Part shown: piece after piece, positions 5,410 through 15,935 of the stretch
Layout of the letters: each line of letters opens with the position of its first letter
Numbering within the stretch: the stretch's first letter is position 1
Source: Shinella sp. H4-D48
GTDB taxonomy: Bacteria; Pseudomonadota; Alphaproteobacteria; Rhizobiales; Rhizobiaceae
Length of the DNA stretch: 64,000 nucleotides
Direction of reading: 5' to 3'
Assembly: GCF_022637395.1 (NCBI RefSeq)
Contig: NZ_CP093337.1
Location: forward strand, 3,184,501 to 3,248,500
Position numbers and translations under genes: made by a program
The notes under the pieces: generated by a model
Seen by the model: the letters and a program-made list of their open reading frames with translations, nothing else
What the model was told of the DNA's origin: nothing
The model's database searches: none

Positions 5410-6723
5410 CTACCAGCCCGAGAAATCCGCAAGCAAGGTGTCGTCAACCCGCCCCGCAGCGACATCGGCGAGGGCCTGGTCGAGAATGGCGAGGCCTTCG
5501 CGCGCCTCGCTCTCCGTCAGCGTGAGCGGCGGCGTGAATTCCAGCACATTCGACCGCACACCGACATAATAGAGCACGAGCCCAAGCTGGAAGGCGCGGT
5601 AGACCGTCAGGGCGGTCTCCCGCGTTGCAGGCGCGCGGCTGGCGCGATCGCCGACCAGTTCCACGCCGAGCGCAAGGCCATGCCCGCGGACATCGCCGAT
5701 CAAGGCGTGGCGCCGGGAGAGCGCATCCAGACCGTCGCGCAGCACGCGACCGGTTCTGGCGGCATTCTCAGTCAGGCGTTCGCGCTGGATGGTCTCCAGC
5801 ACGGCAAGTGCGGCCGCCGCGCAGACCGGATTGCCGTGCACGGTCTGGAGCGAGAATGCCACATCGTGATTCATGATCGCTTCCGGCCCGACGACGGCGG
5901 AGATCGGCAAACCGCCGCCAAGGCCCTTGCCGAAGACGACGATGTCGGGTTCGATGCCGGAATGTTCGAAGGCGTTGAAGCGCCCCGAGCGGCCAAGCCC
6001 CACCTTCACCTCGTCCGAGATGATGAGGATGCCGTGCCTGCGGCAACGCTCCTCGACGGCCCTGAAGAAACCGTCCGGCGGCACCAGCATGCCGCCGTCG
6101 GACTGGATGGGTTCGATGAAGAAGGCTGCGATCTCGTCCGGCGCGACCTCGGTTTCGAAAAGCCGGTCGAGATGGGCAAGGGCTGCCTCGCTCGCGGCCT
6201 GCGGCGTATCCGCGGCATAGCTGTTGGGATAGGGAACGAGCGTCAGGCCGTCAGCGCGGGTGCCCTGTTGCGCCGGGTGCCCCGAGACCGCCATGGAGCC
6301 GACCGTGCCGCCGTGATAGGCGCCGTCGAAGGCGAGAATGCGGGACCGGCCGGTTGCCGCGACCACCATGCGCGCGACGGTCTCGTTGGCATCAGAGCCG
6401 GAATGGCCGAACCAGACGCGGCCACGCGCGCGCTCCGGCACCAGCGACAGGAGCTTTTCGGCAAGCAGCACGCAGGCTTCGTTCGCCGACGAAAGGTAGC
6501 TCGCTCCCGCCTGATCGGAGAGCGCACGGTCGACCGCAGCCCGCACCGCCGGGTGGGAATGCCCGAGGCTCGCGGCACCCCAGGATGCGGCGAAATCGAG
6601 AAGCCTCCGCCCGTCGTCTGCCGTGAGATACGCACCGCTTCCCCCGACGACCGCCTGCGGGAAGAACCGCAGATGCGCCATGCAGGAAACCGACTGACGT
6701 TCACGCGCATAGAGGCCGGACAT
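5410..6723 (-). CDS. Class III PLP-dependent aminotransferase, last gene of the 5-15 kb catabolic operon
   Basis: 437 aa fold-type I class III aminotransferase. Visible motifs are 'FGHSGSDANETVARM' (phosphate cup), 'FDGAYHGGTVGSM', 'FFIEPIQSDGGM', 'IISDEVKVGLGRSG' (PLP-binding Asp) and 'VVFGKGLGGGLPISAV' (Schiff-base Lys). Most relatives read DEVQTG where this has DEVKVG, so the donor pocket may differ. It lies 11 nt after an isochorismatase-fold hydrolase gene and downstream of a HAAT transporter, so it probably removes the amino group from the released catabolite. The specific substrate cannot be read from sequence. It ends 15 nt from convergent nth. Confidence 0.88.
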   Translation of the reverse strand: MSGLYARERQSVSCMAHLRFFPQAVVGGSGAYLTADDGRRLLDFAASWGAASLGHSHPAVRAAVDRALSDQAGASYLSSANEACVLLAEKLLSLVPERARGRVWFGHSGSDANETVARMVVAATGRSRILAFDGAYHGGTVGSMAVSGHPAQQGTRADGLTLVPYPNSYAADTPQAASEAALAHLDRLFETEVAPDEIAAFFIEPIQSDGGMLVPPDGFFRAVEERCRRHGILIISDEVKVGLGRSGRFNAFEHSGIEPDIVVFGKGLGGGLPISAVVGPEAIMNHDVAFSLQTVHGNPVCAAAALAVLETIQRERLTENAARTGRVLRDGLDALSRRHALIGDVRGHGLALGVELVGDRASRAPATRETALTVYRAFQLGLVLYYVGVRSNVLEFTPPLTLTESEAREGLAILDQALADVAAGRVDDTLLADFSGW

Positions 6724-6734
6724 GGGCTTTCCCT

Positions 6735-7406
6735 TTACTTCTTGAAGAAGGTCAGGACCTCGTCGAGCTGGACGACGTGGCAGTAGATCATGTTGATGAT
6801 CTCAAGCTCGCGCTTGTGCAGTTCGTTGGTCGCGGCCGCACCGCAATCGTCCACGACGACGACGCCGAAGCTCTCGTCGGCGAGGCTGCGCACGGTCGAG
6901 GAGACGCACTGGTCGGTGAAGATGCCACAGCAGATGACATCCTTGATGCCCATATTGTGCAGGATAAGCCGCAGGTTCGTGCCGGTCAGGGCGCTGTCCG
7001 TCGTCTTGGTGATGACGATCTCGTCCGCGCGCGGCTCAAGTTCCGGCACCACCTGCCCCTGGGGCAGATCCTTGGGTAGTAGCAGGTAGTTGAAGCCGGG
7101 CTTCTTCTGGCTCAGCGAACGGTCGCGGCCATCGGGCTTCAGGCAGGCGATGCGCGCGAAGATCACCTCCACCTTGCGCTTGCGGCACTCATCGATCAGG
7201 CGGGCCGTGTTTGGGATGACCGTCTGGCGCATGCGGTCGTAGAACGGCTGCCAGCGCGCGGTTTCCTCGGGCGTGTCCTTGGGATCGAGATAGGTGTTCT
7301 GGATGTCGATGACGAGCAGCGCCGTCGTTTCCGGATCGAGCACGATATCGTCGGGCTCTTCGGCATTCGCATAGTAGAAGGAGCGATAGGCGGTTTTCCA
7401 GGTCAT
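6735..7406 (-). CDS. Isochorismatase-fold cysteine amidohydrolase A
   Basis: 223 aa. The expected catalytic triad is visible: Asp in 'LLVIDIQNTYLD', Lys in 'EIVITKTTDSAL', Cys in 'GIFTDQCVSSTVRS'. The family includes nicotinamidase, N-carbamoylsarcosine amidohydrolase, RutB and biuret hydrolase, all acting on amide or carbamoyl bonds. It shares the segment DGRDRSL and the pattern ELEP-x2-DEIV-x2-K with the second hydrolase of this locus (12118-12768), so the two are diverged paralogues. Its ATG overlaps the stop of livM by 4 nt (ATGA), which implies translational coupling with the transporter. Substrate unknown. Confidence 0.88.
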   Translation of the reverse strand: MTWKTAYRSFYYANAEEPDDIVLDPETTALLVIDIQNTYLDPKDTPEETARWQPFYDRMRQTVIPNTARLIDECRKRKVEVIFARIACLKPDGRDRSLSQKKPGFNYLLLPKDLPQGQVVPELEPRADEIVITKTTDSALTGTNLRLILHNMGIKDVICCGIFTDQCVSSTVRSLADESFGVVVVDDCGAAATNELHKRELEIINMIYCHVVQLDEVLTFFKK

Positions 7407-8431
7407 GCAGTCTTCTCCTTCTTTCGGCGGCTGCGGGTGAGGATGTGGCCGATCTCGCGGTTCGGGAAGAGACCGCCCGGCCGGACGATCATTACCGCGA
7501 TCATCGCGAGCGCGAGCACGATCTCCGTCAGGCCGATGACCTGGCCGGAACCTGAGGACCCGGCATTGAGCGCCGCTTCCGTGCCGCGCAGCCCCTCATA
7601 GGCGACTGTGATGAGGACCGTGCCGGCAACCGCGCCGGTGACGGTGTTGGCGCCGCCGATCACCAGCATGGTGATGATGAGGAAGGTCTCCTTGAGATAG
7701 AAGGCCTTGGGCGCGAAGGACGTGATGAAATGCCCCCACAGCGCACCGCCGATACCGGCGATGAAGGCCGCCAGGATGAAGGCGCGCCAGCGCAGGTGCG
7801 GAATGTTCGCGCCAAGCGCGGCCGCAGCGACCTCGTCTTCGCGCGAGGCGCGCAGCAGCTTGCCTGTGCGCGATTCCTTGAAGGCCAGTGCGACCACCAC
7901 CACGATCGCGGCCACGATCGCGGCAATCGGCATCTCCGTCGTCTTGGGCAGGCCGAACAGCGTGCGTGGGCCGTTGGTGAGCGCGCTCCAGTTGTTCATG
8001 ACCGTGTAGAGCACGACGAGGAGTGCGAAGGAGGTGATGACGGCGGCCGCATCCGAAAGCCGCATCAGAGGATAGGCGACGACGGCGGCAACGAGGGCCG
8101 CGACCACGCCGGCGGCCAGCATGGCGAGCATCGGCGAGATTTCAACGACCTTCATGAACTCATAGAGATCCGGCAGCGCCATGCCCTTCATCTGGGCCGG
8201 GATCGTCAGCACCGCCGACGTGTAGGCGCCGAGCCCCATGAAGCCGATATGGGCGAAGGATAGCAGGCCGGAATTGCCCATGAAGGTTTGCAGGCCGACG
8301 ACCAGAACAAGCGAAATCAGGAGGTTTGTGGCGATGCGGTCGTAAAGCCTGATGCCGAGCATCTGGCTGCCGACGGCAATCACGGCGATGACGGCGATCA
8401 GGATGAGGGCGGTGAGATAGGACTGTTTCAT
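7403..8431 (-). CDS. HAAT-family ABC transporter permease (LivM type)
   Basis: 342 aa with about eight to ten hydrophobic segments and the LivM hallmark 'GNSGLLSFAHIGFMGLGAYTSAVL' near residue 55. The EAA-like cytoplasmic loop is seen as 'RTGKLLRASREDEVAAAALGANIPHLRWRAF'. It forms the inner-membrane channel with the LivH-type permease encoded 12 nt upstream. It overlaps the downstream hydrolase A gene by 4 nt. Specificity is set by the binding protein at 10825-11994 and need not be branched-chain amino acids. Confidence 0.93.
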   Translation of the reverse strand: MKQSYLTALILIAVIAVIAVGSQMLGIRLYDRIATNLLISLVLVVGLQTFMGNSGLLSFAHIGFMGLGAYTSAVLTIPAQMKGMALPDLYEFMKVVEISPMLAMLAAGVVAALVAAVVAYPLMRLSDAAAVITSFALLVVLYTVMNNWSALTNGPRTLFGLPKTTEMPIAAIVAAIVVVVALAFKESRTGKLLRASREDEVAAAALGANIPHLRWRAFILAAFIAGIGGALWGHFITSFAPKAFYLKETFLIITMLVIGGANTVTGAVAGTVLITVAYEGLRGTEAALNAGSSGSGQVIGLTEIVLALAMIAVMIVRPGGLFPNREIGHILTRSRRKKEKTA

Positions 8432-8443
8432 GGGTTCCGCTCC

Positions 8444-9334
8444 TCAGGTCCGCTGGCCGCTGGCCGGACCCTTGATGAGGCCCTCGGGCCGCCAAAGCAG
8501 GATCAGGATCACAAGGCTGAAGGTGAAGGCATCGCGGAACTTCAGGAGGTCCTGCGACAGGGTGTAGTTGAGCGTGGTGTCGATCAGCGCCAGAAGGAAG
8601 CCGCCGACCACCGCACCCGGCAGGCTGCGCATTCCGCCGATGACGGTGGCGATGAAGGCGACGAGCAGCGGCTCGAGACCGACTCCTGGCACGACCGTGC
8701 CGATACGCCCGATCCACAGCAGACCGACGACGCCGGCCAGGAAACCCGACAGCGCGAAAGCCGACGAGATAATGAGGTTGGCCGGAACGCCCAGCATGCG
8801 TGCCATGGTGAAGTTCGTGGCGGCCGCGCGCATCGCGATGCCGAGCGTCGTCTTGCGCATCAGGAAGGCAACGGCGGCAAGCAGTACGATGGAGGCGGCG
8901 ATGGTGATGAGATTGCGCACCGGCGTGATTGCCCCACCGATCGAGACCGTCTGCGAGAAGATGTCGGGCAGCGGCACATTGCGCGGACGCGGTGAGATGA
9001 AGAGCAGGGCCGCGTTCTGCAACAGGTTCGAGAAAGCGAAAGAGGTGATCAGCACCGCCGTCACCGATTTCGCGCGTACCGGGCGGAAGGCGACGTAGTC
9101 GGTGAGGATGCCGAAGACGACCGCCATCGCAACGGCGAGAACCGCCATGAGCAGCCAGGGCAGACCGGAGCCGCTCGTCAGGAACATGGTATAGCCGGCG
9201 ACCATGATGAGTTCGCCATAGGCGAAGTTCACCAGCCGCAGGATGCCGTAGATGATGACAAGACCAAGCGCCATCAGCGCATAGGCGCCGCCGAGGCTGA
9301 GCACGTCGATGAGGAACTGGATCGCGAAAGCCAT
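8444..9334 (-). CDS. HAAT-family ABC transporter permease (LivH type)
   Basis: 296 aa, predominantly hydrophobic. The LivH signature is 'GGAYALMALGLVIIYGILRLVNFAYGELIMVAGY' near the N-terminus, and the cytoplasmic loop is 'TTLGIAMRAAATNFTMARMLGV'. It ends 'ILLWRPEGLIKGPASGQRT'. It pairs with the LivM-type permease. The gene starts 3 nt after the stop of the LivF-type ATPase gene, consistent with one mRNA. Confidence 0.93.
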   Translation of the reverse strand: MAFAIQFLIDVLSLGGAYALMALGLVIIYGILRLVNFAYGELIMVAGYTMFLTSGSGLPWLLMAVLAVAMAVVFGILTDYVAFRPVRAKSVTAVLITSFAFSNLLQNAALLFISPRPRNVPLPDIFSQTVSIGGAITPVRNLITIAASIVLLAAVAFLMRKTTLGIAMRAAATNFTMARMLGVPANLIISSAFALSGFLAGVVGLLWIGRIGTVVPGVGLEPLLVAFIATVIGGMRSLPGAVVGGFLLALIDTTLNYTLSQDLLKFRDAFTFSLVILILLWRPEGLIKGPASGQRT

Positions 9335-9337
9335 GGA

Positions 9338-10045
9338 TCAGCCTCCCAGGTAATGTGCGCTGAGATCGCTGGTGGAGCGGATCTCGTCTGCCGTGCCGGA
9401 CGCGACGATCGCGCCAAGTCGCATGACATAGGCACGATCGGCGACGGCGAGCGCCTGGTTCACGTTCTGCTCGACGAGCAGGATGGTCAGGCCGGATTTT
9501 TTCAGCGTCTCGATCATCTCGAAGATGCGTTCGACGATGGCGGGTGCCAGACCGAGCGAGGGTTCGTCGAGAAGCAGCACGCTCGGGCGCGCCATGAGCG
9601 CGCGGGCGATGACCAGCATCTGCTGTTCGCCGCCGGACAGCGTGCCCGCCGCCTGAGAAGCGCGCTCGGAAAGGCGCGGGAAGAGCGTGTGCAGCCTGTC
9701 GAGGTTCTGGCGGTTGCCGGCGTGGTCGCGGCGATGGATATAGGCACCGAGCATCAGGTTCTCGGCGACGGTCAGGTCCGGGAAGACGTCGCGGGTTTCC
9801 GGTACGGTGGCAAGCCCCGCACGGATGACCTGCTCGGGATTGGCCGAGGTGATGTCTTTGCCTTCGAGCGTGACTGCGCCGCCGGAGGTCTTCAGCGCGC
9901 CGGCGATCGCCTTGATGGTGGATGACTTTCCCGCGCCGTTTGCGCCGAGCAGGCTGACGAGTTCGCCCTTGCCCACGGTGAAGCTGATGCCGCGCACCGC
10001 GCGAATCGTGCCATAGCTGACGGAGAGCTCGCGCACATCAAGCAT
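9338..10045 (-). CDS. HAAT-family ABC transporter ATPase (LivF type)
   Basis: 235 aa from the ATG at 10045 (MLDVRELSVSYGTIRAVRG). It has Walker A 'LLGANGAGKSSTIKAI', ABC signature 'GTLSGGEQQMLVIARALMA', Walker B 'VLLLDEPSLGLAP' and the switch His in 'ILLVEQNVNQAL'. The short LivF length and the VEQN motif separate it from LivG. Its start overlaps the stop of the LivG gene by 8 nt. The upstream extension to 10204 would lie within livG and has no homology. Confidence 0.94.
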   Translation of the reverse strand: MLDVRELSVSYGTIRAVRGISFTVGKGELVSLLGANGAGKSSTIKAIAGALKTSGGAVTLEGKDITSANPEQVIRAGLATVPETRDVFPDLTVAENLMLGAYIHRRDHAGNRQNLDRLHTLFPRLSERASQAAGTLSGGEQQMLVIARALMARPSVLLLDEPSLGLAPAIVERIFEMIETLKKSGLTILLVEQNVNQALAVADRAYVMRLGAIVASGTADEIRSTSDLSAHYLGG

Positions 10046-10772
10046 GGGCCGCCCCCTTTCCGAGATAGGCTTCCACAACAGCCGGATGACTGCGCACGTG
10101 TGCGGCGTCTCCTTCGGCGATGGTGCGGCCGGAGGCCAGGACGTGCAGGCGGTGGCAGAGTCGCATGATGAGACCCATGTCATGGTCGATGATGATGAGG
10201 CCAAGGCCTCGGGTCTTCGGCAGCTCGGACAATGTGTGCAGCAATGTCTCGGTTTCGGTATCGTTCATGCCGGCAGCCGGTTCGTCGAGCAGCAGGAAGC
10301 GCGGCTCGGCGGCCAGCGCCCGGGCGATCTCGACGCGACGCTTGTCGCCGTAGCTCAGGCTCTCGCCGAGCTCATCCGCCTTGTCCGTCAGGCCGAGTTC
10401 ATCGAGCAACCTGACCGCGCGCTCGGTGCTGACGGCGCGGGAAACACCCTTGGCGAGGGCCGCGGCCTCCACATTCTCCAGCACCGTCATGCCGTTGAAC
10501 AGGCGCACGATCTGGAACGAGCGGCTGACGCCGGCCAGCGCAATATCGCGCGGCGACAGACCCGACAGCGTGACGTCGCCGGCGGTGATCGTGCCGCCGG
10601 CGAGCTTCACCTGTCCGGTGATCGCATTGATCATCGTCGTCTTGCCGGATCCGTTCGGCCCGATGAGGCCGAGAACCTCGCCGGTGGCGACGGACAGCGA
10701 GACATGGTCGAGAGCGCGGAGGCCGGTGAATTCCACCGACACGTCATTTACCGCGAGACGTGCTTCAGACAT
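10038..10772 (-). CDS. HAAT-family ABC transporter ATPase (LivG type)
   Basis: 244 aa from the ATG at 10772 (MSEARLAVNDVSVEFTGLRA). It has Walker A 'LIGPNGSGKTTMINAI', signature 'ESLSYGDKRRVEIARALA', Walker B 'FLLLDEPAAGMND' and the LivG-type 'LIIIDHDMGLIM' switch. It is somewhat shorter than enteric LivG. It lies 52 nt downstream of the binding-protein gene across a strong stem-loop, an arrangement that usually lowers permease/ATPase expression relative to the binding protein. Confidence 0.94.
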   Translation of the reverse strand: MSEARLAVNDVSVEFTGLRALDHVSLSVATGEVLGLIGPNGSGKTTMINAITGQVKLAGGTITAGDVTLSGLSPRDIALAGVSRSFQIVRLFNGMTVLENVEAAALAKGVSRAVSTERAVRLLDELGLTDKADELGESLSYGDKRRVEIARALAAEPRFLLLDEPAAGMNDTETETLLHTLSELPKTRGLGLIIIDHDMGLIMRLCHRLHVLASGRTIAEGDAAHVRSHPAVVEAYLGKGAAHA

Positions 10773-10790
10773 GGCTTTTCCGAAAAGTAT

Positions 10791-10812
10791 GGGCCGGCTG
10801 ATGCGCCGGCCC
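10791..10812 (-). terminator. Intercistronic stem-loop between binding-protein gene and LivG ATPase gene
   Basis: GGGCCGGC and GCCGGCCC form a perfect 8-bp stem with a 6-nt loop. On the reverse strand it follows the binding-protein stop by about 12 nt. No U-run follows, so it fits an mRNA-stabilising or partially terminating hairpin rather than a full terminator. Such hairpins let a binding protein accumulate over its membrane partners. Confidence 0.6.
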
Positions 10813-10824
10813 GAACGGCAGGGA

Positions 10825-11994
10825 TCAGGGCTTCGGCAGGGATTCCGGCTTGCGCCAGCCAACGAAGCTCGGCTTGCCGGCCTTGAGTTCGATCACCGCG
10901 GCGGCCTTGTTCGGGACGTGTCCCTCTTCGGCCGTGCCATAGTCAAGTTCGCCGGTGAGCAGCTTGAAATTGCCGTCTTCAAGCGCCTTGGCCAGTGCGG
11001 CACCTTCTGTCGTGCCGGCCGCCGTAATGGCCTGAGCGATCATCATGATCGTGTCCCAGCCCGTCGAAACGAAGGAAGTATCCGGGTCCTTGCCGAACAT
11101 CTCCTTGTAGAGGCCGATGAACTTTTCCATCTCCGGATCGGCGCCTGCGCCCATCCAGGTGTGGGTGACGAAATAGACGTCGTTGCCGAACTTCTCGCCG
11201 AGCGCTTCGTGCATGGCCGGATCGTCATAGGCGTCACCACCGAGAACCGGCGCATCGTAGCCGACTTCACGCAAAGCGCGGATGATCACGCCGATATCCG
11301 TGCCGTAGGACGAAACGAAGATGACGTCGGGCTTCTTGCCGAGCGCCTGGAGGCGCGAAAGCTGGGCGGAGAAGTTGTTGTCGCCGTTCGTATAGGTGTC
11401 TTCCAGCAGGATTTCGCCGCCGTCAGCCTTGAACTGCTCGACGAAGTACTTGGAGAGCGACTTGGTGTAGGCAATGAACTGATCGGTCACGACATAAGCC
11501 GTCTTCCAGCCCTTTTCCTTAAACGCGAAATCGGCAGCCGTCGCGCCCATCGTGGTGTTCCACATGGAGAGCGTGAACTGCTTGTCGCCGAGCGACCACG
11601 AGGAATAAAGCGGATCGGAGGCGCAGGTCGAAATGCCGACGATATCGGCGGACTGCGCTTCACGGCTGGCCGGTGATCCGAAATCGAAATCGCAGGGTGC
11701 GACGATCACCTGGGCACCCTTGTCGATCAGTTCGACGGCGACGTTGCCGACCGTGACCGGGTCGGACTTGCCGTCAATGTTAATGAACTCGATCTTCTTG
11801 CCGAGCACGCCGCCATTGTCGTTCAGGTATTTGACTGCGACCTGCGCGCCGTTGAAGCCGGGCGTGTCGAGCGGGGCCTGGATACCCGTCATCGAAAGCG
11901 CGCCGCCGATGACGATCTTGTCGTCGTCTGCAAATGCAGAGGAAGAGGCAAGCACGAGGCCCGCCGCCAGAAGCAATTTGGATGTTTTCATCAT
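10825..11994 (-). CDS. Periplasmic substrate-binding protein of HAAT ABC transporter (LivJ/LivK type)
   Basis: 389 aa from the ATG at 11994, preceded by AAGGGGA at a good spacing. A Sec signal peptide (MMKTSKLLLAAGLVLASSSAFA) is followed by 'DKIVIGGALSMTGIQAPLDTPGFNG', the usual type I periplasmic-binding start. The mature protein has the two-lobe Peripla_BP_6 pattern ('GKKIEFINIDGKSDP', 'VIFVSSYGTDIGVIIRALREVGYDAP', 'VSTGWDTIMMIAQAI'). 'IVAPCDFDFGSP' replaces the usual IxGPxSS region, so the ligand is probably not an ordinary branched-chain amino acid. It is a direct handle for identifying the locus substrate. Confidence 0.92.
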   Translation of the reverse strand: MMKTSKLLLAAGLVLASSSAFADDDKIVIGGALSMTGIQAPLDTPGFNGAQVAVKYLNDNGGVLGKKIEFINIDGKSDPVTVGNVAVELIDKGAQVIVAPCDFDFGSPASREAQSADIVGISTCASDPLYSSWSLGDKQFTLSMWNTTMGATAADFAFKEKGWKTAYVVTDQFIAYTKSLSKYFVEQFKADGGEILLEDTYTNGDNNFSAQLSRLQALGKKPDVIFVSSYGTDIGVIIRALREVGYDAPVLGGDAYDDPAMHEALGEKFGNDVYFVTHTWMGAGADPEMEKFIGLYKEMFGKDPDTSFVSTGWDTIMMIAQAITAAGTTEGAALAKALEDGNFKLLTGELDYGTAEEGHVPNKAAAVIELKAGKPSFVGWRKPESLPKP

Positions 11995-12062
11995 GATCGT
12001 TCCCCTTGATGAATGCCTTGCGGCTGTGAATGGCATGCGGTCCGGCCTTTTTCTTGTTTTGT

Positions 12063-12117
12063 GCGGCCCGCCTGAAAGCTCCTTGGTTGATCCCGTCGCG
12101 TAACTGTGCCGGGCCGC
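12063..12117 (-). promoter_or_regulatory. Inverted repeat immediately after the RutB-like gene stop, in the leader of the binding-protein gene
   Basis: GCGGCCCG (12063-12070) and CGGGCCGC (12110-12117) are perfect 8-bp arms separated by 39 nt. The right arm touches the stop codon of the hydrolase gene. It could be an mRNA processing or attenuation structure between the enzyme and transport parts of the operon. Evidence is sequence symmetry only. Confidence 0.35.
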
Positions 12118-12768
12118 TTACTGCCCGATTTCCTTGAGCAGATCGTCGGTCGAAATCTGCCGGCAATAGCCCTTGATCGCATTGATCGAGAAGTCGTGCC
12201 GCTCCTGCGAATAGGTGCCGCAGGCATCGGGCACGAGCGTCACGAGGTAGTTGAGGTCGCAGGCATCGCGCACCGCCGATTCCACGCACTGGTCGGTCAG
12301 GAGACCGCAGAGCACGATCTGCCGCACGCCGAGATTGCGCAGGATGTAATCGACATGGGTGGAGACGAACACGCTCGACGAGCTCTTCGGCAAGACAATC
12401 TCGTCCTCCAGCGGCTCCAGCTCGTCGATGACCTTGCCGTCCCACGAGCCCTTCGGCACGTTGAAGCCGGTGATCTTGTAATCGAGGCTGCGGTCGCGGC
12501 CGTCCTTCGTCAGGCTTTCGATCGTCGTGTGCAGCACTTCGATGCCGGCCTTGCGGAAGCCGGCAAGCAGGCGCTGCATGTTCGGGATGGCGACCTCATG
12601 GATGCGCTTGAAATAGTAGCCGTACTTGCCCTCGATATCGGCGTCGGAGACGTCCTTGAACTCGCCGCCGTCACGGCGCACGGAGAAGTTCTGCACGTCG
12701 ATGAAGAGGATGGCGGACGCGGCCGGATCGAGCGGCAGGTTGCGGGTGGAGGGATGGTCAGCGGCCAT
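12118..12768 (-). CDS. Isochorismatase-fold amidohydrolase B, RutB-like
   Basis: 216 aa from the ATG at 12768 (MAADHPSTRN). Catalytic Asp in 'AILFIDVQNFSV', Lys in 'DEIVLPKSSSSVF', Cys in 'GLLTDQCVESAVRDA'. The run 'KGSWDGKVIDELEPLEDEIVLPK' followed by 'VDYILRNLGVRQIVLCG' strongly resembles E. coli RutB, which cleaves the carbamate/ureido end of ureidoacrylate. A ureido or carbamoyl-amide substrate is therefore a reasonable inference. The start overlaps the end of the FGase-like gene by 11 nt, so the two are translationally coupled. No other rut genes are in the window, so this is not a pyrimidine Rut operon. Confidence 0.87.
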   Translation of the reverse strand: MAADHPSTRNLPLDPAASAILFIDVQNFSVRRDGGEFKDVSDADIEGKYGYYFKRIHEVAIPNMQRLLAGFRKAGIEVLHTTIESLTKDGRDRSLDYKITGFNVPKGSWDGKVIDELEPLEDEIVLPKSSSSVFVSTHVDYILRNLGVRQIVLCGLLTDQCVESAVRDACDLNYLVTLVPDACGTYSQERHDFSINAIKGYCRQISTDDLLKEIGQ

Positions 12769-13573
12769 CGGAAGATCCTTCAAGGCTTTGGGCTGCGAGG
12801 AGAAGCGGACCGGCAAGGCGCTCGGCCCATGCCTCCTGACCGCTCGCGTCTTGGATGAGGTCGTTGCGCACTTCGATGAGCACATGCGGAATGCCGCGTC
12901 GTTCACCGTGCACCGGGATGGTGTAGTCGGAGACATCGTCAACGTGATACGGCGCGTTGAGCTTGACCGTCACGTCGGCATTCGCTGCGCTGAAGGTTTC
13001 CGCAAGCCGTTCGGCAAAGCGCGCATCCCTGTTGTAGAGCAGGCCAAGTTCGAAATCGCGGACCGCGCCGGTGGCGCGCATGACGGGCGTGAAGCTGTGC
13101 ACCGAAACGAGGACAAGCGGCCCGCCAGCCGCCTGCCGCCGTTCCAGCGCAACGGAGATTGCCTCATGCAGAGGCTGGTGGATTTCCACGAAACGGCCGC
13201 GCCGCTGGGCGTCGGAAACATTGGCATTGGCCGGAATGAGCGTGCCGTCGCTCTGCTTGAGAACGCAGTCTTCCGCTTCGAACGGGCGGTTGCAGTCGAT
13301 CACCAGACGGCTGTAGCGCTGGAGGATGAGAGCGGCATCGAGCCGTTCCGCAAGCCGACGGGCAAGGCCCTCGGCCCCGACATCGTAGGCGATGTGCCGG
13401 TCCATTTCCGCGGACGCGACACCGAGATCGCCAAGTGCGGCCGGCACGGCGCGGCCGGCATGCTCGCAGGTCAGGAAGATGGGCGAACGCCCGGTCGCGT
13501 TGATCCATTCCACGGGGTCCGGGTCGCCAGCATTCAGCAATCTGGACATGTCGCTATCTGCAAGACTGAGCAT
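12758..13573 (-). CDS. N-formylglutamate amidohydrolase (FGase)-family metallohydrolase, first gene of the leftward operon
   Basis: 271 aa. FGase-family motifs are 'FLTCEHAGRAVP', 'DRHIAYDVGAEGLARRLAERL', 'YSRLVIDCNRP', 'LVSVHSFTPVM' and 'LIEVRNDLI'; the His/Glu residues in these are the expected metal ligands. The family includes HutG-type N-formylglutamate deformylase of histidine degradation. No other hut genes are present, so a different N-acyl substrate is likely. The operon's promoter should lie in the 156-nt gap shared with the divergent RpiR gene. An ATG eight codons downstream (13549) is an alternative start. Confidence 0.85.
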   Translation of the reverse strand: MLSLADSDMSRLLNAGDPDPVEWINATGRSPIFLTCEHAGRAVPAALGDLGVASAEMDRHIAYDVGAEGLARRLAERLDAALILQRYSRLVIDCNRPFEAEDCVLKQSDGTLIPANANVSDAQRRGRFVEIHQPLHEAISVALERRQAAGGPLVLVSVHSFTPVMRATGAVRDFELGLLYNRDARFAERLAETFSAANADVTVKLNAPYHVDDVSDYTIPVHGERRGIPHVLIEVRNDLIQDASGQEAWAERLAGPLLLAAQSLEGSSDGR

Positions 13574-13631
13574 GAAATGGTATCCGTCGAACGTATCGGC
13601 TTGGGCCGAAACGTGAGCTTCGATGACAGCC

Positions 13632-13703
13632 AGTCAAAGAAATTTTCCAATCATAGTCAATCCGATTTTTCCATTTGACTAATTTTTTTCACGGCGCAAA
13701 TAT
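13632..13703. promoter_or_regulatory. Divergent promoter/operator region with AGTCAA/TTGACT half-sites, candidate RpiR-family operator
   Basis: Three copies of one hexamer occur in an unusually AT-rich gap: AGTCAA at 13632 and 13655, and TTGACT at 13675. The last two form an inverted repeat with a 14-nt spacer. TTGACT at 13675-13680 with AAATAT 17 nt later could be the -35/-10 of the RpiR gene. A regulator bound here could control both transcription units. This is inferred from symmetry and position. Confidence 0.5.
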
Positions 13704-13729
13704 CCGGCCCCAATAACGGGAACACACTT

Positions 13730-14632
13730 ATGAGCGATGGGAAATCGTCGACGACGGTCCGCACGCGGATCCGGGAGGCGGCCGGGCAGCTGACCGCCAG
13801 CGAGCGCAAGATCGCCAATGCCATCCTTGCCGACTACCCCTTCACGGGGCTCGAGAACATTCAGGAACTGGCGGCGAAAACCGGCGTCAGCGCGCCCTCG
13901 ATCACCCGCTTCGTGAGCAAGATCGGCTGCAGCGGCTTCCAGGATCTGCAACGTCAGCTCATCGCCGAGCTGAAGGAAGGGCAGCGTTCACCGCTCGACC
14001 TGAAGACGCGGCAAACGCCGGTCGGCCATTCGGAATTCCTGTCGGAATATGTACGGCGCATCGCCTCCGTCGCGCAGGAGATGGCGGCAACCGTCTCGCA
14101 GGCGCAGTTCGATATCCTCGCCGACCTGATCGCCGATCCCTCGCGCAACATCTTCCTGCTCGGCGGCCGTGTCAGCGACAATGTCGCGTCCTTCCTGTCG
14201 ATCCATCTGCGGCAGATCCGCAGCGGCATCTACCACATGTCCGACAATCCGGAGTTCTGGCCGGAACATGTGTTGCGCATGCGCAAGAAGGATGTCGTGC
14301 TGCTGTTCGATTTCCGGCGCTACCAGCTCAGCCTCGCACGCCTTGCCGAAACGATCGCGCAGGCGCGTGGCGCCACCATCGTCGTGATCACCGACAAGTG
14401 GATGTCGCCGGCCGCCCGCAGCGCCGACCACATCGTCGCCCTGCCGATCGAGGCCGGCACGGCCTGGGATACGGTGGCGGCCGCAATCGTTCTCGTCGAG
14501 GCGCTGATCGTGCGCGTCTCCGAGGCGGATTGGGAGGCGACACAGAAACGCATCAGGGATTGGGACGGCGTACGCTTCTCCATGCCGGGCTACGACCAGG
14601 ATACGATCAACGGGGACGACGATGAAACGTGA
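13730..14632 (+). CDS. RpiR-family transcriptional regulator (HTH + SIS domain)
   Basis: 300 aa. The N-terminal HTH_6 region ('LTASERKIANAILADYP', 'ELAAKTGVSAPSITRFVSKIGCSGFQDLQRQL') fits RpiR. The C-terminal SIS domain (about residues 125-260; 'NIFLLGGRVSDNVASFLSIHLRQI', 'VVITDKWMSPAARSADHIVALP') normally binds phosphosugars or related ligands. It overlaps the next gene by 11 nt and is divergent from the catabolic/transport operon, so it is the likely local regulator with a pathway intermediate as effector. Confidence 0.9.
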   Translation: MSDGKSSTTVRTRIREAAGQLTASERKIANAILADYPFTGLENIQELAAKTGVSAPSITRFVSKIGCSGFQDLQRQLIAELKEGQRSPLDLKTRQTPVGHSEFLSEYVRRIASVAQEMAATVSQAQFDILADLIADPSRNIFLLGGRVSDNVASFLSIHLRQIRSGIYHMSDNPEFWPEHVLRMRKKDVVLLFDFRRYQLSLARLAETIAQARGATIVVITDKWMSPAARSADHIVALPIEAGTAWDTVAAAIVLVEALIVRVSEADWEATQKRIRDWDGVRFSMPGYDQDTINGDDDET

Positions 14633-15935
14633 AGAAATGATGGTTGCCTGCTGCGGCGACCTTTCCGGCAAGGTGCGGGGCAAGGCCTTTCCGCTGGCGC
14701 AGATGGAAAAGCGCCTGAAGCGCGGCGTGGGCTGGACGCCGACCAATGTCCAGATCACCTGCTTCGACGCCATCGCCGAAAGCCCCTTCGGCTCGCTGGG
14801 CGACCTCGTGCTCATTCCCGATCCGGCAACCAGCGTCAGCATCGAAAGCGAGGAAGGCGCGCCGAACGAGAACTTCGTGCTCGGCAACATCCGCTATACC
14901 GACGGCAGGCCGTGGGAATTCTGCACGCGCTCCATCCTCGAAGGCGCGCTCGAGCGCCTGCAAAAGGTGGCGGGCGTGACGCTCTACGGCGCCTTCGAAC
15001 ATGAATTCCAGATCAAGCATCTGGTGTCAGAGGTCGGCGGCGCCTTCACGCTGGGCGGCTTCCAGCGGGAGCGTCATTTCTGCGAGGCGATCATCGCCGG
15101 CATGCGCACGGCCGGCGTGACGCCCGACACGATCCTCAAGGAGTTCGGCGCCGGGCAGTTCGAGGTGACGATGGGCCCGCAGAAGGGCGTGACCATCGCC
15201 GACCATTCCATCATCACGCGGGAGATCGTCGGCCTCGTCGCGCGCGAGCTCGGCTACGATCCGACCTTCACGCCGATCCGCGATCCGGCCGGCGTCGGCA
15301 ATGGCGTGCATGTCCACATGAGCATGCTGGACGCGTCCGGCAATCCCGTGACCTACGATCCCGCTGGCAAGCACGAGCTCTCGGATGTCGCGGGCAAGTT
15401 CGTCGCCGGCATCCTGAAATATCTCGATTCGATCATCGCGATCACCGCACCGAGCGTCGTTTCCTACCTGCGGCTGACGCCGCATCGCTGGAGTGCTGCC
15501 TTCAACAATCTCGGCTTCCGCGATCGCGAGGCCTCGGTGCGCATCTGCCCGGTCTCCGATATCAGCGATATCGCCCGCGCCGCGCAGTTCAACTTCGAAT
15601 TCCGTGCGGCGGACGGTGCGGCAAACCCGCATCTGGCGCTTGCCGCCATCGTCCATGCCGGCGTGCAGGGCATCGAGGAAGGCCTTGCCGTGCCGGAGGC
15701 AACGCAGGAAGATCTTTCACTTCTCGGCACGGATGCACTTGCCGCCCGTGGCTATGTCCGCCTGCCGCAGACGCTGGAAGCGGCTTTGCAGAGGTTCCGC
15801 GGCAACGAGACCGTTTGCGGCTGGTTCCCGGAGGGCTTCGCGGACGTCTATGTCAAGCACAAGGAGGGCGAGATCGCCTATCTCGCGGGCAAGACCCAGG
15901 CGGAGATCTGCGCGGCGTACGAAGACGCCTACTGA
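14622..15935 (+). CDS. Glutamine-synthetase-like ligase (GS catalytic domain, non-GlnA)
   Basis: 437 aa. The beta-grasp N-terminus has 'CCGDLSGKVRGKAFPL'. The catalytic domain has 'YGAFEHEFQIKH' (metal Glu residues), 'LKEFGAGQFEVTMGP', 'VGNGVHVHMSM' (ATP/ammonia loop, altered from canonical NGSGMHxHxS) and 'REASVRICP' (glutamate-binding Arg). The adenylylation Tyr segment (NLYDLP) of GlnA is missing. These changes suggest ligation of glutamate, or another acid, to an amine other than ammonia, as in PuuA or GMAS, but the acceptor is unknown. It overlaps the RpiR gene by 11 nt and is followed by a strong terminator. Confidence 0.85.
   Translation: MKREEMMVACCGDLSGKVRGKAFPLAQMEKRLKRGVGWTPTNVQITCFDAIAESPFGSLGDLVLIPDPATSVSIESEEGAPNENFVLGNIRYTDGRPWEFCTRSILEGALERLQKVAGVTLYGAFEHEFQIKHLVSEVGGAFTLGGFQRERHFCEAIIAGMRTAGVTPDTILKEFGAGQFEVTMGPQKGVTIADHSIITREIVGLVARELGYDPTFTPIRDPAGVGNGVHVHMSMLDASGNPVTYDPAGKHELSDVAGKFVAGILKYLDSIIAITAPSVVSYLRLTPHRWSAAFNNLGFRDREASVRICPVSDISDIARAAQFNFEFRAADGAANPHLALAAIVHAGVQGIEEGLAVPEATQEDLSLLGTDALAARGYVRLPQTLEAALQRFRGNETVCGWFPEGFADVYVKHKEGEIAYLAGKTQAEICAAYEDAY

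Follow-up and report, generated by a model that had tools for sequence, protein, structure and literature searches.

A conserved racemase, ligase and hydrolase operon of Shinella sp. H4-D48, most likely for the catabolism of amino-amide or amino-lactam compounds

The window analysed here is a 64,000-nucleotide stretch of contig NZ_CP093337.1 of Shinella sp. H4-D48, and its positions 5410–15935 carry eleven intact genes, closely packed into two divergent units, as established by checks of reading frames and domain families. The set consists of a pyridoxal phosphate (PLP) enzyme, two isochorismatase-fold cysteine hydrolases (CH1 and CH2), a hydrolase of the FGase family, five genes of a HAAT transporter, an RpiR regulator and a ligase resembling glutamine synthetase (GS). 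Most likely, it is a conserved operon that imports and degrades small amino-amide or amino-lactam compounds, a substrate class and an order of steps that we infer. A first-pass annotation of this DNA had described a divergent locus, RpiR gene included, for the catabolism of a nitrogen compound, and this description is supported; every gene it listed lies intact where it was placed and belongs to the domain family it was given, but ten genes had been counted where there are eleven.

A racemase-family enzyme in a recurrent operon

The best solved relatives of the PLP enzyme, similar over its full length, are the alpha-amino-epsilon-caprolactam racemases (ACLRs) 5m46 and 5m49 (E = 1.6e-153) and 2zuk (2.7e-149); the amino acid amide racemase 6gio also matches (2e-140), and the identity is 57% to the R. 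freirei ACLR and 55% to the A. obae ACLR. Three residues, Asp209, Lys240 and Glu395, are kept in 112 of 112 family members and form a signature shared with the R. freirei and A. obae ACLRs, and none of the genome's seven class III paralogues has all three. Over the aligned stretch, the Asp and Lys of 5m46 are altered in the deposited chains 5m4b and 5m4d. In class III aminotransferases, the substrate carboxylate is bound by an Arg, which is replaced by Glu in all 112 members of the PLP family. Among the seven paralogues, position 395 is Arg in three and position 240 is Gln in four, with the PLP lysine kept in all. The controls comprise all seven class III and all eight GS paralogues of the genome, with the frame picked by similarity. 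The family-wide counts here and below (112 racemases, 119 binding proteins including the window's own, 124 GS-like proteins, 125 CH2 and 122 FGase proteins) pool several collections in which some genomes occur twice, and are not independent.

The PLP enzyme matches the class III fold PF00202 (1.5e-92), and its family is annotated elsewhere as 'aspartate aminotransferase family protein'. Among the 25 of 69 NCBI families listed for it, it reaches no equivalog cut-off, its best score being 360 against 608 bits. The first-pass annotation had it take up the amino group as a class III aminotransferase; that role was rejected on the ACLR-type residues, on the Glu at a position where three of seven paralogues have Arg and on the solved relatives, which are racemases. 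On sequence grounds, the enzyme is placed in the ACLR/amino-acid-amide racemase family.

The surroundings of this gene are conserved. The best 80 out of 334 relatives, taken from the collection of named genomes, were compared, with neighbours counted within 10 kb where the contig allows: the racemase gene is accompanied by the genes for the GS-like ligase at 67 loci, the FGase at 68, CH2 at 67, RpiR at 62, the binding protein at 70 and CH1 at 32, and the ligase, FGase, CH2 and HAAT binding protein all lie near it at 63 of the 80. At eight of the 80, some of them on short contigs, GS, FGase, CH2 and RpiR are all below threshold. At the genome level, the GS-like gene (E <= 1e-80) is present in 41 of 42 Rhizobiaceae genomes with the racemase and in 54 of 352 without it, and the two genes lie at most 10 kb apart in 39 of the 42; the corresponding Fisher value of 5e-28 is indicative only, because related genomes are not independent. 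The gene set recurs across other genera and orders, as a co-occurrence check proposed with the first-pass annotation had sought. Thus, the locus is not a chance assortment, and the combination, which had been called uncommon, is uncharacterised yet widely conserved.

A second view is given by 40 loci anchored on the GS-like gene, which has a match in 59 of the 297 genomes searched. Near it are found CH2 (36 loci), FGase (33), RpiR (29), the binding protein (26), the racemase (10) and CH1 (2). The racemase and the binding protein are each non-essential to the core, since both are missing from some of these loci. Of the 34 loci with a binding protein at least 60% identical to that of the window, 32 have CH1, as does none of the 46 others; CH1 therefore belongs to that transporter type. 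RpiR, GS, CH2 and FGase make up a core that is also seen alongside different transporters, namely an ATPase/permease fusion type in Maritalea and Sulfitobacter and an APC permease on Klebsiella plasmids.

ACLR and the amino acid amide racemase 6gio are familiar as isolated biocatalysts, whereas the window's gene lies inside an operon of transporter, ligase and hydrolases. Loci with PLP enzymes 73–75% identical to ACLR carry the same operon, as do those with enzymes 81–87% identical, members of the window's own genus among them, which suggests, from the loci of relatives rather than from the R. freirei, A. obae and O. anthropi genes themselves, that this operon is where ACLR-family genes naturally occur. 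The GS-like gene is present at 15 of 16 ACLR-type loci compared (out of 42 found among 394 Rhizobiaceae genomes), the exception, L189, having the racemase and transporter genes only. The best match to the R. freirei ACLR in the 394 genomes is 87%, and R. freirei is apparently not among them. Amino-lactams, amino acid amides and homocysteine thiolactone are all reported substrates of characterised ACLRs (PMC7431475 and PMC11391342, in excerpt), a range that fits one substrate class for all enzymes of the operon.

Within the genus, Shinella sp. WSC3-e has the same eleven genes on a 787-kb plasmid, as compared with a 3.48-Mb contig in the window's genome, suggesting that the unit has moved between replicons. 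Other Shinella genomes (L174, L175, L177, L178) hold another version of the operon, with an enzyme of the R. freirei ACLR type (85–87% identical) and a GS only about 40% identical.

A conserved extra enzyme was sought in 143 neighbourhoods, and none was general: with genes resembling the window's eleven excluded, no non-core family recurs at more than 13 of the 143 loci. Six neighbour proteins were annotated by Pfam, and several other recurrent clusters resemble spurious antisense frames. A DAO-family oxidoreductase is found at 10 loci, an amidase-signature enzyme at seven and an Amidohydro_2 protein at four. In L077 (8850–10067) and L078, the Amidohydro_2-type protein adjoins the GS-like gene, a pair that recalls the two-domain FluG arrangement (PMC6478659, in excerpt).

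Ligase, hydrolases and the binding-protein pocket

The closest solved relative of the GS-like protein is P. aeruginosa PA5508 (E = 1.1e-96). At the position of the flap Glu, which is Glu in an aligned true GS and in one (L215) of the genome's eight GS-family paralogues, all 124 GS-like relatives have Trp. With 241.8 bits against a cut-off of 650 in the PuuA model NF045547, identity with PuuA, the gamma-glutamylputrescine synthetase, was rejected. PA5508 is reported to favour bulky amines over polyamines (PMC6478659, in excerpt), and enzymes of the GoaS type are said to have lost glutamine formation (PMC11335346, in excerpt). At the family level, the protein would be a glutamyl-organic-amine synthetase of the PA5508 type that has lost the flap Glu; the earlier description of it as GS-like is supported.

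The Asp-Lys-Cys triad is complete in 37 of 37 CH1 proteins and in 124 of 125 CH2 proteins, the remaining one being gapped, and the description of both as hydrolases is supported. Both fall far under the NCBI equivalog cut-offs, CH1 scoring 76.2 bits against 370 for biuret hydrolase and CH2 78.6 bits against 377.95 for RutB, and these two identities were rejected. In a search of the window's genome, CH1 and CH2 are the only isochorismatase-fold genes, and they are 37% identical to each other.

The FGase-family hydrolase, one of only five found in the whole genome, scores 166.3 bits with PF05013 (gathering score 28.9). The N-formylglutamate deformylase HutG was rejected as its identity at 37.3 bits against the cut-off of 278.75 in TIGR02017. 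Its structural model (pLDDT 92.2) matches Atu2144, an N-formylglutamate amidohydrolase, as well as the aspartoacylase/succinylglutamate desuccinylase fold and, weakly (E = 2.3e-4), the phage poly-gamma-glutamate hydrolase 3a9l, whose name implies cleavage of a gamma-glutamyl bond. Judged from these model matches, the enzyme is likely the one that removes a glutamyl group.

The ligand of the transporter was approached via alignment of the solute-binding protein to the E. coli leucine-binding protein (LBP). Asp is found at LBP positions 19 and 78 in 119 of 119 binding proteins, and at positions 80 and 226 in 118 of 119; the set includes the window's own protein, and the relatives are 28–99% identical to it. 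We take the LBP ligand residues to be Ser79 in a carboxylate-binding loop, Thr102, Tyr202 and Glu226, and in this family the Ser79 loop is replaced by Asp78-x-Asp80. The controls were 17 of the genome's 19 other HAAT binding proteins, the alignable ones, with L202 and L204 left out. None of the 17 has Asp at both 78 and 80, three have it at 80 alone, and none has it at 19. These residues point to a cation lacking a free alpha-carboxylate as the ligand. The predicted structure (pLDDT 84.7) has the fold of leucine-, urea- and amide-binding proteins, and the fold alone is not decisive for the ligand because it is common to all three.

A proposed pathway and its alternatives

These enzymes may be combined in a catabolic route for a chiral, cationic alpha-amino amide or lactam without a free alpha-carboxylate, through racemisation, gamma-glutamylation, hydrolysis and deglutamylation, a reading to which we give slightly less than an even chance. 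The HAAT transporter would import the amino amide or lactam, as its pocket indicates, and the ACLR-type enzyme, by family, would racemise it, making both enantiomers usable. The GS-like ligase, again by family, would use ATP to join the gamma-carboxyl of glutamate to the alpha-amino group of the substrate. CH2, or CH1 for the substrate range of this transporter, would then hydrolyse the amide or lactam to an N-gamma-glutamyl amino acid, from which the FGase-family hydrolase would free glutamate and the amino acid. The alpha-amino amide or lactam class fits all of these enzymes because the racemase needs an alpha-amino carbonyl, the ligase an amine and the cysteine hydrolase an amide. Some fold relatives of the FGase use N-acyl amino acids whose carboxylate is free; such a compound, which the FGase would need, is formed only after the amide has been cut, and the proposed order of steps follows from this. 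The racemase would be optional, as it is absent from most GS-anchored loci, which is expected if it only opens both enantiomers to the pathway. The first-pass annotation had proposed glutamylation followed by removal of an N-acyl group and a final transamination; the first two remain plausible and are kept here, the glutamate being likely removed by the FGase, whereas the last is unsupported. A further claim, that HAAT import of the chiral substrate, racemisation, a gamma-glutamyl handle, a cysteine amidase and an FGase acting as gamma-glutamyl hydrolase make up the native pathway of the ACLR/amino-acid-amide racemase family, one that would be widespread and so far undescribed, is put forward tentatively, as possible and rather unlikely.

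Several observations weigh against the amino-amide or amino-lactam route. ATP is not required to hydrolyse simple amino acid amides, which leaves the glutamylation step without an explanation, and no alpha-amino amide or lactam is known to be abundant in nature. The racemase is missing from 30 of the 40 GS-anchored loci, and the binding protein is present in 26 of them. The flap Trp is not unique, as one of the eight GS paralogues of the genome (L220) shares it, and the top Foldseek ranks for the solute-binding protein are branched-chain amino acid binding proteins. The DAO-family FAD oxidoreductase is added in L072, L074, L083, L153, L155, L158 and L160–L163, seven of these ten being named Mesorhizobium, and an oxidative variant of the operon therefore exists. 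Lastly, the in vitro preference of PA5508 is for bulky amines and not for amino amides (PMC6478659, in excerpt), and its substrates are described inconsistently in the available part of PMC11335346.

The relation to PA5508, the best solved relative of the ligase, and its reported preference for bulky amines also favour a gamma-glutamyl route for an aromatic or biogenic amine, in which the hydrolases trim the product and the racemase serves a side substrate. The pocket aspartates would suit any cation, and the core does occur without the racemase. However, the Puu and isopropylamine routes contain oxidative enzymes, unlike this operon, where the ceiling of 13 in 143 loci for any non-core family leaves no general oxidative enzyme, and two amidase-type hydrolases and an amino-amide racemase would be left without a role. 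This route is considered unlikely.

In place of nitrogen nutrition, the operon may serve to detoxify or salvage either cyclised products of amino acids (homoserine lactone, homocysteine thiolactone, ornithine lactam) or an amino-lactam antibiotic. Compounds of this kind are cationic and have no carboxylate, the operon is located on plasmids in several genera, and homocysteine thiolactone is a reported substrate of the A. obae ACLR. On the other hand, a dedicated importer dependent on a binding protein argues for nutrition, and the two extra aspartates would find no NH donor in a lactone; this explanation is considered distinctly unlikely.

The alternative offered by the first-pass annotation, in which a ureido or carbamoyl compound is hydrolysed in steps, has in its favour that CH1 and CH2 are distant relatives of RutB and biuret hydrolase. 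The distance is large, at 76 against 370 bits for CH1 (biuret hydrolase) and 79 against 378 for CH2 (RutB), no positive evidence for the alternative was found, though no search aimed at hydantoinase or urease genes near the relatives was made, and both the racemase and the ligase would be unexplained; it is very unlikely. The main route of the first-pass annotation, which starts with glutamylation and cleavage of an imported amine and ends with a class III aminotransferase, is highly improbable: Pfam, the NCBI models and the record annotation do name the PLP protein an aminotransferase, but Glu395 and Lys240 are invariant in the family where the genome's paralogues have Arg (3/7) and Gln (4/7), and the nearest solved proteins are racemases.

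Locus architecture, regulation and relation to known systems

The amino-amide or amino-lactam route would draw on the genes listed in Table 1. From the centre outwards, the minus strand carries the FGase, CH2, HAAT binding protein, LivG, LivF, LivH, LivM, CH1 and PLP enzyme genes, and the plus strand carries RpiR followed by the GS-like ligase. The transporter is complete, with a solute-binding protein, two permeases and two ATPases. The overlapping starts and stops noted in the first pass were confirmed: four neighbouring gene pairs overlap by 4 to 11 bp, namely CH1/LivM (4 bp, 7403–7406), LivF/LivG (8 bp, 10038–10045), CH2/FGase (11 bp, 12758–12768) and RpiR/GS (11 bp, 14622–14632). The window is part of a 3.48-Mb contig in a 4.77-Mb genome, and the nearest named relative seen is Shinella sumterensis, whose eleven proteins are 95–100% identical.

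Table 1. Genes and candidate operator of the locus, in window coordinates
Feature	Coordinates	Strand	Remarks
PLP-dependent fold-type I enzyme, putative ACLR/amino-acid-amide racemase family, 437 aa	5410..6723	-	
CH1, isochorismatase-fold cysteine hydrolase, 223 aa	6735..7406	-	D34-K134-C167 intact
LivM-type HAAT permease, 342 aa	7403..8431	-	
LivH-type HAAT permease, 296 aa	8444..9334	-	
LivF-type ATPase, 235 aa	9338..10045	-	
LivG-type ATPase, 244 aa	10038..10772	-	
HAAT solute-binding protein, 389 aa	10825..11994	-	Asp43, Asp102, Asp104 and Asp254 at LBP positions 19, 78, 80 and 226
CH2, isochorismatase-fold cysteine hydrolase, 216 aa	12118..12768	-	D24-K128-C161 intact; conserved core member
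FGase-family (PF05013) hydrolase, 271 aa, carboxypeptidase/aspartoacylase-like fold	12758..13573	-	Proposed glutamyl remover
Candidate operator, perfect inverted repeat TAGTCAA-N14-TTGACTA	13654..13681	.	Between the divergent units
MurR/RpiR-family regulator, HTH_6 and SIS domains, 300 aa	13730..14632	+	
GS-like gamma-glutamyl ligase, 437 aa, related to P. aeruginosa PA5508	14622..15935	+	Trp290 at the GS flap-Glu position

The inverted repeat between the two units is the sole match to its pattern in the 64 kb, even when two mismatches are allowed, and no match was obtained in 100 shuffles. Exact copies occur in 20 of 24 aligned intergenic regions, the window's included, and one of the four misses is N-masked. 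The repeat is a candidate RpiR operator, through which the regulator would probably control both units. A scan of 13400–13900 for sigma-70 promoters and terminators found none.

On a Klebsiella pneumoniae plasmid (NZ_LR890649.1, L080), a compact core of cysteine hydrolase, FGase, RpiR, GS-like protein, APC permease and PLP enzyme lies between insertion sequence elements. The identities to the window's proteins are 60% for the cysteine hydrolase, 41% for the FGase, 33% for RpiR and 43% for the PLP enzyme, whereas the GS is only 29% identical, and the APC permease stands in place of the ABC transporter. The GS of L080 scores best, below the cut-off, with the gamma-glutamylputrescine synthetase model. 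The PLP gene (E <= 1e-80) was found in 85 plasmid records, of which 45 are from Klebsiella, L080 being the one locus of these that was examined.

PA5508, with its ligase of the same family as the window's, has as neighbours PA5506, PA5507 and PA5509, which we take to be an RpiR regulator, a cysteine hydrolase and an FGase. If that gene content holds, a label of 'glutamine synthesis' for the cluster may be wrong; it is under this label that PA5506–PA5509 were reported to be over-expressed in PAO1 with every tested plasmid except one (PMC6246594, in excerpt). PA5510 appears in a table as an amino acid/polyamine permease (PMC9397018, in excerpt). In the puu, isopropylamine, aniline and 1-naphthylamine routes, a GS-like GoaS enzyme glutamylates an organic amine (PMC11335346, in excerpt). 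The window's operon shares the GS-like ligase with these glutamylation pathways but differs in having no general oxidative step and in having amidases, an FGase and often a racemase. The N-formylglutamate deformylase of hut and the window's FGase belong to the same Pfam family, PF05013, at the HutG score given above, and for the ten remaining genes the domain and family model searches gave no match to hut families. In the open-access literature, outside which most subscription journals lie, term searches found no description of the gene set as a pathway and no physiological role for ACLR. The operon is thus real, conserved and catabolic, a variant of the known glutamylation pathways that those searches leave unnamed and whose substrate we infer.

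ACLR is used as a biocatalyst, and its natural job may lie in this operon; because close ACLR relatives sit in one conserved operon, its physiological role can be tested directly. These genes would also establish a glutamylation pathway in which oxidation is not a general step. They would further give a function to families that are named only by fold as 'aminotransferase', 'N-formylglutamate amidohydrolase', 'glutamine synthetase' and 'isochorismatase', and that are co-located in many soil and plant-associated bacteria as well as on Klebsiella plasmids.

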